A model generated the notes under the pieces. That model was not told the origin of the DNA, made no database searches, and saw only the letters and a list, made by a program, of their open reading frames with translations. The position numbers and the translations under genes were made by a program. A stretch of DNA of 64,000 nucleotides from Akkermansia biwaensis (lineage in GTDB: Bacteria > Verrucomicrobiota > Verrucomicrobiia > Verrucomicrobiales > Akkermansiaceae). Of this stretch, positions 49,068 to 52,300 are shown in pieces. The DNA is taken from the NCBI RefSeq assembly GCF_026072915.1, contig NZ_AP025943.1, positions 1,178,001 through 1,242,000 on the forward strand, read 5' to 3'. Every line of letters starts with the position of its first letter. The first letter of the stretch is position 1.

Positions 49068-49355
49068 TTAGGGTATACAAACTACAGTTAATGTCATAAA
49101 TAGAAACAATAATAATAATATAAAAATGCTAATAATTACACACTTTCTTACTTTTCTGTTTGATAAAAATAACAAAGATATATAAAAGAATAGTATTAGA
49201 AAAATAATAAATATATGAATATTTTTCCATACGCTATCTACAATCAAATTTTGCATTTTACAGTATACTACTGCATAGTCATGTATCGCAAATAATGACA
49301 GTAAAATAAAAAAAACTAAAATGTATGTTAACGGATTTTTAGATAATTTATTCAT
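49068..49355 (-). CDS. Candidate immunity protein, three membrane helices
   Basis: A 95-residue, strongly hydrophobic protein with three helices (about 8-33, 46-68 and 74-95). The ATG at 49355 overlaps the Rhs stop by 8 bases (ATGAATAA), so its translation is probably coupled. The position directly after an Rhs tip is where cognate immunity genes sit. A membrane location would fit a toxin acting at the membrane or in the periplasm (inference). No family recognised. An in-frame longer start at 49418 would only extend into Rhs. Confidence 0.65.
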   Translation of the reverse strand: MNKLSKNPLTYILVFFILLSLFAIHDYAVVYCKMQNLIVDSVWKNIHIFIIFLILFFYISLLFLSNRKVRKCVIISIFILLLLFLFMTLTVVCIP

Positions 49356-52300
49356 TGGATTTAAATATTGTTCCGTCCGGATTGCAACATTTCCCAATTC
49401 CTGGTTTATCCATTCCATATGCTGCAGCCTTACTAGACCATATTATACAACTACTGAATATCAAGTTATATAATGGCGGATCTGCTTCATCCTCCTTCAA
49501 TTTAGAAAGCATCTCGATATCTTGGCATGGAGATGAATTCATTGTAATGGGAGATTCAAGATTTAAACCTTCTGATGATACAATTTTTCCTTTTGCAATT
49601 ACAATAGAAGATATGCAATTCAGAATATTCCCAACAGAACACCAAAACCCCGTTTTCTCTGTTAAAACAGCCGCAAAATCATATGTTACAATTCCATTCT
49701 TAATATATTTCCCCTCTTTTTCAATCCATTGATCTACTGCTACTCCAACATGTAGTGTTGTTGTTCCAGATCCTCCATACCCTGCTATATCAAAATGTGT
49801 AATATATCTGTTAAGCCCTATATAATCCGATAAATATGTTATACCATTTGAAAGATAGAGATTCCATCCCCCTTCTTCGGCGATGGGATCGCGATTGATC
49901 CACCTGCCGTCTGAGGGATGGTAATAACGATAATTGTAATAGACCAGGGACAGTTCCCCGTCGTTCATCTCGCTGCTCCACTGCACCGGCTGGACAAGGT
50001 CTCCCGTGGAAGCAACCTGTCCATAGGGAGAGTAGTCATAAGCTGCCGCAATACTTCCCTCTTCATCAAACACCTCCGTAACGTTCTTGTTGAAGTCAAT
50101 GCCATAGCAGTATAGGGCATTGTCTCGCACCAGGGCCAGGGGGCGCGTGGCTACCTCTTCCAGAGGATCCCACAACAGTGTCCGAAGCACGTTCCGGCTG
50201 TTGAGCATGTCCAGCGCAGCTATCTGCAGGTAGCCGCGGTACAGGTACCGTTCATGGCTGGCGACCGTTCCGTTGACGGTTACTTTCTTCATGTAGCGGC
50301 GCCCCTGATCGTCATACCCGCATTCCACTACTATGTTTCCGTCCTGGCTTGTGAAGCTCACCGCCCGGTTGGCCGCATTGTACACGGCCGTCCAGATACC
50401 CGTTGATGTTTTGATGAGAGTCTGGTTGCCCGAGGCGTCGTACTGCGGAACGAAGGGCTGTTCCAGGGTTGAGAGTGGTGAGTTGAGAGTGGAGTTGGTG
50501 ATGCTGGTGTACTGGTTGAGCTCGTTGACCGCGTAGGTAAGTTCCTCGGCCAGTTCCTGCGCCGTCTTGCGGTTGCCGATGTTGTCGTAGCTGTAACCGT
50601 AGGGAGCGGTTCCCAGGGAAGCTCCGGTGAGTTCGTTTCTGCCGTTGTAGCTGAAGCTGTCATTGCGGGCAGCTTCGGTTCCCCGCTGCCGGGTGCGGGC
50701 AGTCGGGCGTCCCAGTGCGTCGCAGCTCTGGGTGCGGGAGACCAGCCCGGTTTCTCCCAGCCGGCAGTTCATTCCGGTAATCAAGTCACGCCGCTGTTCG
50801 TAAGAAAGTTCCCTGACGATGCCGTTGGGCATCGCCAGGCTGGAAAGCAGGCTGCTTCCCGCCAGATAGCCGTAGGCAAATGTCTGTTCTTCTCCCCCGT
50901 GCATGATTCCGGCGCTGGCCAGCCGTCCGTCGTCTGCGTAGCCCTGGCTGACTTCCTGAAGGACGTCGGTTCCCTGCTTCAAGGTATAGCCGGAGGACCG
51001 GCCGTAAGTGTCGTAGTTTTCCTGGAGCTGGTAGAGAGCTCCCCCTATCGTGATGCTGTCGGTGTCCGGTTCGCTGTATTGGTTGTAGGCGATGGTGCGC
51101 GTACCGGAGGCGTCCGTGACCCGGGTCAGCTGGTTGAGGTAGTTGTAGGCGTACTGGATGCCGGGCGTGGCGTCGCTGTAGGAAACGGAGGTGTTGACTC
51201 CTTTTTTCAGGTTGTAGCCCCAGGTGGTGACCACACCCCGCGCGTCCGTGAGCGTTGATTTGAGGTTCAGGGCGTTGTAAGTCGTATCCTCATGGGTGCC
51301 GTCCGCATAGGTTTTGCGCAGAACCAGCCCGGTGGCTTCATCGTAGCTCCAGGTGGTGAGGTCTCCGTCCGTGCGTCCCGCGGGATCGGTGGTGATGTCG
51401 CCCGCGTCCTCCCGGAAGGTGGTGAGGCTGACCATTCTGTCTGCCTCGTCGTAACCGAAGAGGACAGGCTGGGTGGCCGAGCCGTATTGCGCCGTCTTGC
51501 GGCCCCGGAGGTCGTAGCTGTAGCAGGTCGTGTTCCCGAGAGCGTTGGTGACCACGGAAGGCTGGTCGAAGTAAGGGCTGTAGGCGGTGGTCGTCGTGTT
51601 GCCCGCCGCGTCCGTCACCGAAACGGTGCGCCCGGCGATGTCGGTCTTCGTCGTAGTCGTGTTACCCCGTCCGTCCGTATTGGTGTAGACGATTCCCACT
51701 TCTGTATACGTTCGGGATGCCGTACTCATTAGTCCTGCGTAGTCTGTCGAACTTATGATGAATTCTTCTACTGCGTGAATAATCCCCGTGATATCCGAGG
51801 TGGGAACGGCGCTCTTTTGCGTCCGCAGGGCGCCCGCTCCGTATTCGCTCCACTGCGTGGATATATTTCCCCTGGGATCGGTAGCGATGGTTTTGCTTTC
51901 CAGCGTGGAAGAGAGGCTGGAGATGAGTTCCTTTTGCGTTTCGTCATAGGTCGTGCCCTGGCCGTTGTTCCTGGTCGCCGTGACGACACGGTACACGCCA
52001 TCTTCCGCCTGTTCCGCTCCATAGCTCCACGTAGTGATGCGCGAGTTGGACACGGTGGCCGGATCGGCCAGCTTCCAGGTTTCTTTCGTCCTGTTGCCGA
52101 AGGCGTCGTATTCCCACAGGGTCGGGGCCATCGTCGTGGCCGCGTTGCCCGCATCCGTCTGTGTTTTGGTGAGCTGTCCCTTGGCGTTGTAGGTGTTTCT
52201 CGTGTAAATGACTCCGCCGACGGTGTTGGGGACGCCCGTGCGCAGGGTTTCCCCGATTCCATTGACAATGCTGCGCTGCAGTTCGGTTTCCGTTTCACCG

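Follow-up and report, generated by a model that had tools for sequence, protein, structure and literature searches.

What does the C-terminal end of an Rhs protein of Akkermansia biwaensis do, and why does the gene for a small hydrophobic protein begin before the Rhs gene has ended? The locus lies in a stretch of 64,000 nucleotides (nt) (NCBI RefSeq assembly GCF_026072915.1, contig NZ_AP025943.1, positions 1,178,001 to 1,242,000 of the forward strand) of a genome that consists of a single contig of 3,175,525 bases. This whole stretch is called the window here, and coordinates are counted from its first letter; all features described in it are on the minus strand. An initial annotation, made from the letters of the window, had described a polymorphic-toxin module with an apparently unassigned tip. 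We slightly favour the reading that the module carries, on an Rhs shell, a permuted NlpC/P60 enzyme that would attack acyl linkages of the envelope and would be blocked by its membrane partner.

An Rhs gene with an exchangeable tip

The open reading frame (ORF) of the Rhs protein (49348-55077; 1909 amino acids, aa) is open through shell and tip. Its matches place it, at the level of repeats and core, among the Rhs polymorphic toxins: the Pfam family RHS_repeat (PF05593) is found in 12 stretches (E 1.5e-26), and the Rhs-associated core (Rhs_assc_core, TIGR03696) at residues 1682-1741 (E 5.9e-14; 52.3 bits, with a cut-off of 32.5). The shell, composed of YD repeats and this core, was delimited to 49813..55077 using the ORF, both families and a DNA alignment with the Rhs gene of genome G067. 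The core ends in RDPIAEEGGWNLYLSNGITYLSDYIGL and is directly followed by the tip. Its last part (RDPIAEEGGWNLY...DYIGL, 49813..49893) is a predicted self-cleavage signature, judging by the sequence and its likeness to that of TseI, whose C-terminal cut has been reported to follow a similar signature (PMC7170923); by this analogy, the tip is probably released from the Rhs protein by self-cleavage after DYIGL. The guanine-plus-cytosine (GC) content is 34.8% in the tip, 60.3% in the shell (49861-55077) and 55.3% in the whole window, in agreement with the initial description of a tip poor in GC on a GC-rich shell, although the length given there, about 170 residues, was slightly long for a tip of 154 aa.

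The shell DNA is 86.5% identical, over 49855-55303, to the Rhs gene of G067, a sister species of the same genus. The alignment stops 43 nt short of the predicted start of the tip, and the shell in G067 carries a different tip. A displaced copy of the window's tip is present further along the same G067 locus (91.7% identical DNA over 48867-50349; the tip proteins are 99% identical), where the partner gene is frameshifted. The other Rhs tips in the fetched loci of the genus are widely different from one another, and the tip is, as far as these comparisons go, a movable module, one shell being combined with different tips in relatives. Behind an intact 1948-aa Rhs gene, the G067 locus (L084, G067:C1:246000-264000) carries several incomplete core ends, each with a tip of its own, and the displaced copy of the window's tip belongs to this array. 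Just past one core end in the array, a tandem repeat encodes HSPSLSFTLL again and again (L084:15410-15780).

A predicted permuted NlpC/P60 arrangement in the tip

The tip (49348..49812, stop codon included) is predicted, from alignments, an AlphaFold model and VIA-align, to be a 154-aa permuted NlpC/P60 enzyme. In the permuted arrangement, as published, both the His and the Tyr precede the Cys, Tyr101 and Cys108 being those of PPPDE1 (PMC3142127), and the aligned sequences of the tip family display this His-then-Cys order together with a conserved Tyr. His21 (49750..49752, within LHVGVAVD; predicted catalytic), Tyr115 (49468..49470) and Cys122 (49447..49449, within SSCIIW; predicted nucleophile) are invariant in the nine aligned members, and the Tyr precedes the Cys by seven residues in all nine, the spacing found in PPPDE1. 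Five aligned tips have in common R2, Y3, H21, A25, V26, D27, W29, G34, G40, G75, S93, D98, Y115, C122 and G133; in the nine intact aligned tips of the phylum, which were found by profile and are thus biased towards sequences keeping such residues, the invariant set shrinks to H21, V26, D98, Y115 and C122. The residue preceding the Cys is Ser in the window's tip and Asn in seven of the nine, and in the profile search Cys122 falls on the NC motif of the PLAAT and PPPDE chains. His21 and Cys122 are likely the catalytic pair of a cysteine hydrolase: the initial annotation had picked out both motifs by eye as a hint of such an enzyme, and the invariance of the two residues, the profile search and VIA-align all speak for it.

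The AlphaFold model of the tip reached a predicted template modelling score (pTM) of 0.70. In VIA-align, the six first rows obtained for the nine-row model were all permuted NlpC/P60 or NC-box proteins (TseH, 8.2; Aichivirus 2A, 7.1; CLN5, 6.5; H-REV107, 5.1; parechovirus 2A, 4.5 and 4.4), and the next row was an unrelated chain (3.2); PPPDE and YiiX chains were not in these rows, an absence that is uninformative. When the nine-row profile was run against the PDB, PLAAT/HRAS-like, LRAT chimera and PPPDE chains made up 10 of the 12 matches, with PLAAT phospholipases leading the list. Foldseek against viral models gave a picornavirus polyprotein as best match (probability 1.00, E 0.0039, query TM 0.49), the others being chance-like. 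Plain Foldseek against the PDB did not show the permuted NlpC/P60 fold with either tip model; the proteasome/HslV chains at the top for both models were rejected as spurious (TM 0.26 or less, root-mean-square deviation mostly about 15 Å), so that the fold call depends on VIA-align's second pass together with the motif and the profile list.

Family searches gave weak matches to Pfam PPPDE (PF05903) in four of the nine members (best E 0.013) and to Pfam LRAT (PF04970) in one (best E 0.036), neither of them in the window's tip and none significant. DUF6695 was matched by no member at E 5 or better, NCBIfam gave no match of note for the tip clade, and PDB phmmer with the tip alone returned a single chance match (E 0.14). 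The tip, called unassigned before, can now be placed: prediction supports a permuted NlpC/P60 (LRAT/PLAAT/TseH-like) fold with an H21/Y115/C122 active site, an arrangement that makes acyl or lipid chemistry likelier than plain proteolysis.

Hydrophobic partners across the tip family

The partner gene (49068..49355; 95 aa, GC 20.8%) codes for a predicted immunity protein, identified from its ORF and hydropathy. It has two in-frame ATGs, an upstream one at 49418 (116 aa) and an inner one at 49355, the latter 5 nt ahead of the Rhs stop codon and giving an overlap of 8 nt, so that the start within the Rhs stop proposed initially was nearly exact. A Kyte-Doolittle scan finds three hydrophobic segments, in line with the three-helix membrane protein first suggested; there is no Pfam or NCBIfam match above cut-off.

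Partners of the tip family have at least one hydrophobic segment in 11 of 11 cases and two or more in 8, whereas for a control of 26 further Rhs tips from the fetched loci the figures are 12 and 3 (four of the 26 being without a qualifying ORF; Fisher p 0.002 for at least one segment and 0.0005 for two or more). The 11 partners belong to the nine intact tips and to the relics in G034 and G035, G425 (broken tip), G067 (frameshifted partner) and G517 being excluded; minus the two relics, two or more segments are found in six of nine (p 0.003). These values come from a simple Kyte-Doolittle window, which counts signal peptides as well, and from loci that are related by descent; partner starts were allowed from 130 nt before the tip end in the family and from 40 nt in the control, and all 11 chosen lie within the narrower range. 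The pairing of the tip with a neighbouring hydrophobic ORF, as read from these loci, recurs in other genomes of the phylum more than expected by chance, and this recurrence, together with the same shell bearing another tip in the sister species, upholds the polymorphic-toxin module of the initial annotation. In G610 and G557 the partner has one hydrophobic segment at the N-terminus and then a longer hydrophilic part; with the segment as an N-in anchor, this part would lie on the periplasmic side.

Downstream of the partner, a 293-aa ORF (47954-48835) has a hydrophobic N-terminus and no Pfam or NCBIfam match above cut-off, and may be a leftover immunity gene; an unrelated-looking 267-aa ORF occupies its place in the G067 locus.

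Distribution of the tip family

Among 76 genomes of the genus, clear tips are present in the window's own (G000), G067 and G063, and relics in G034 (two stops) and G035 (weak score, recognised by eye). At E 0.01 or better, seven of the 387 genomes searched in the phylum have a match (G000, G063, G067, G272, G136 with two loci, G425, which is broken, and G060, uninspected). With the five-row profile, scans at class level, whose genome sets overlap, found 11 of 345 and 9 of 288 genomes and brought in the more distant G610, G557, G544 and G540; a scan at order level found 8 of 161 at E 1e-4. A search of 84,980 species genomes with the five-row alignment and one pattern gave 17 pattern matches and, among them, five loci, which carry the labels Akkermansia, Verrucomicrobia, Kiritimatiellae and Lentisphaeraceae; relatives in other phyla may have escaped this single pattern. 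The genome-contig scan with the tip alone found no match, nor did tblastn against plasmids (tip with core end, or the G063 relative) or against phages (tip); a viral-contig scan with a two-row alignment gave 88 pattern matches with no relative among them, and PHROGs gave chance-level matches only.

The context of 13 of the weak-row loci (L037-L048 and L050) was viewed: 12 were judged unrelated, and L040 (G035) is a relic. G060 (internal stops), G517 (a fragment with a stop) and the short, uninspected G622, G540:C408 and G272:C11 were dropped before the counts, as were open frames of G624, G471 and G194 that by eye are unlike Rhs tips. L094 (G624) and L097 (G194) contain GHSW and FNCTD or YNCTD motifs and match the tip profile weakly; these non-Rhs proteins may form a permuted NlpC/P60 family of their own.

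Some of the other Rhs tips of the genus have recognisable domains: DUF900 (an alpha/beta hydrolase; L025:3783-4646, E 2.9e-14), DUF4329 (L032:2475-2960, E 1.3e-19) and the transglutaminase TGL (L027:5016-5672, E 3.2e-11), all in Pfam. The tip at L033:15851-16462 (G014), without Pfam match, has His-Trp and then NCRWY near its end, and by eye is perhaps another permuted NlpC/P60 tip. Those at L025:1117-2040, L031:1227-1808 and L020:763-1593 have HG and later GC or ACY, with no Pfam match at E 0.1, which by eye suggests caspase-like folds.

Comparison with known systems

Rhs polymorphic toxins whose effector domain is a permuted NlpC/P60 enzyme are a known kind of system; searches of the open-licence PMC literature turned up no description of this tip clade. 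Shell, core signature, exchangeable tip, overlapping partner and displaced tips downstream are shared with other Rhs polymorphic toxins, but the type VI secretion system (T6SS) families for the sheath VipB (PF05943) and the VgrG-type base Phage_base_V (PF04717) have no match in the window's genome, both searches being positive in control genomes. The PLAAT/HRAS-like phospholipase-acyltransferases and LRAT are eukaryotic lipid enzymes and not secreted-toxin tips, and PPPDE (Peptidase_C97), which shares the seven-residue spacing and a YN...NC motif, differs in that all its matches here are weak.

Tox-Act1, to which the tip is likened by published description, is a permuted NlpC/P60 enzyme described as cleaving phosphatidylglycerol and phosphatidylethanolamine, with His and Cys needed for toxicity, and its immunity protein Imm-Act1 has two membrane helices (PMC12994826). 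The module of the window resembles it in its predicted permuted His-then-Cys core, its predicted immunity protein of membrane type and its putative antibacterial secretion context; however, Tox-Act1 is a T6SS-delivered Salmonella effector, whereas here an Rhs tip of Verrucomicrobiota has a three-helix partner. TseH, a T6SS effector, is placed by the same source in the Pfam DUF6695 clade (PMC12994826), a family without a match among the nine members at E 5 or better, and no Rhs shell is named for it in the text consulted.

Proposed mechanism and alternative explanations

In the mechanism that we propose, with odds judged a little better than even, the Rhs shell would hold and export the 154-aa C-terminal enzyme, which would be freed by self-cleavage after DYIGL and would reach the envelope of a neighbouring cell. 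There, the H21/Y115/C122 active site would form an acyl-cysteine intermediate in attacking the acyl linkages of membrane phospholipids or lipoproteins, and the overlapping three-helix partner, in the owner's inner membrane, would block the enzyme at that place. By analogy with Tox-Act1, the tip most likely acts on acyl bonds of the membrane lipids of the envelope, and would be stopped in the membrane by its partner. Of this picture, the module itself, the swapping of tips on a common shell, the conserved signature and the hydrophobic partner can be read from the sequence; fold and active site have the support of prediction, and cleavage, toxicity, immunity, lipid substrate and delivery are inferred.

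The same fold and the same toxin-immunity module could also serve an amidase or protease that acts on peptidoglycan, or on a protein of the periplasm or membrane, instead of on a lipid, a possibility that we hold to be real but clearly the lesser one. The closest structural match of the tip is TseH. The presumed target of this effector is the cell wall. PPPDE, the Pfam family with the most matches, all weak, among the members, is named a peptidase, and canonical NlpC/P60 members are described as peptidoglycan peptidases (PMC12994826); the permuted branch, however, has been linked to hydrophobic S1 pockets and lipids (PMC3142127, PMC12994826), the top of the PDB profile list is held by phospholipases, and the partners are hydrophobic proteins of membrane type.

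That the tip is an enzyme and no antagonistic toxin, for example one for the maturation or acylation of the Rhs protein or of some other surface protein, with the membrane ORF as a helper for maturation or export, is improbable: the YD-repeat proteins among the outer-membrane proteins of Akkermansia muciniphila would fit a surface role too (PMC4960237), but displaced tips downstream of an intact Rhs gene that bears a different tip, and many kinds of tip in the genus with a different partner for each, are the pattern of toxin-immunity exchange. Least probable, in our judgement, is a decayed or inactive copy in a passing cassette without function, although G034, G035 and G425 hold broken relatives, the G067 copy is orphaned with its partner frameshifted, and the window's tip deviates from the N-C motif; in the window, an unbroken frame runs through shell and tip, the partner too is open, and the His, Tyr and Cys are retained.

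Implications

Beyond the enzyme-partner module of the window, we tentatively propose, with somewhat less confidence than for the mechanism above, an undescribed clade of toxins of the permuted NlpC/P60 type, seen in this analysis only in Verrucomicrobiota-type bacteria, that would act as envelope phospholipases or transacylases, would be delivered by Rhs shells without a T6SS in a major genus of the human gut and would be neutralised by diverse small membrane proteins. To our knowledge, Akkermansia has been heavily studied in the gut, yet little is known of its competition with neighbours. YD-repeat proteins are among the outer-membrane proteins reported from A. muciniphila (PMC4960237), and a variable segment associated with the response to immune checkpoint inhibitors includes one YD-repeat gene (PMC10654443), neither report being about this tip. 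With its testable Cys/His pair and compact partner, this tip would make two questions approachable, namely which bond of the envelope is the target and by what route an Rhs shell leaves the cell when there is no T6SS.
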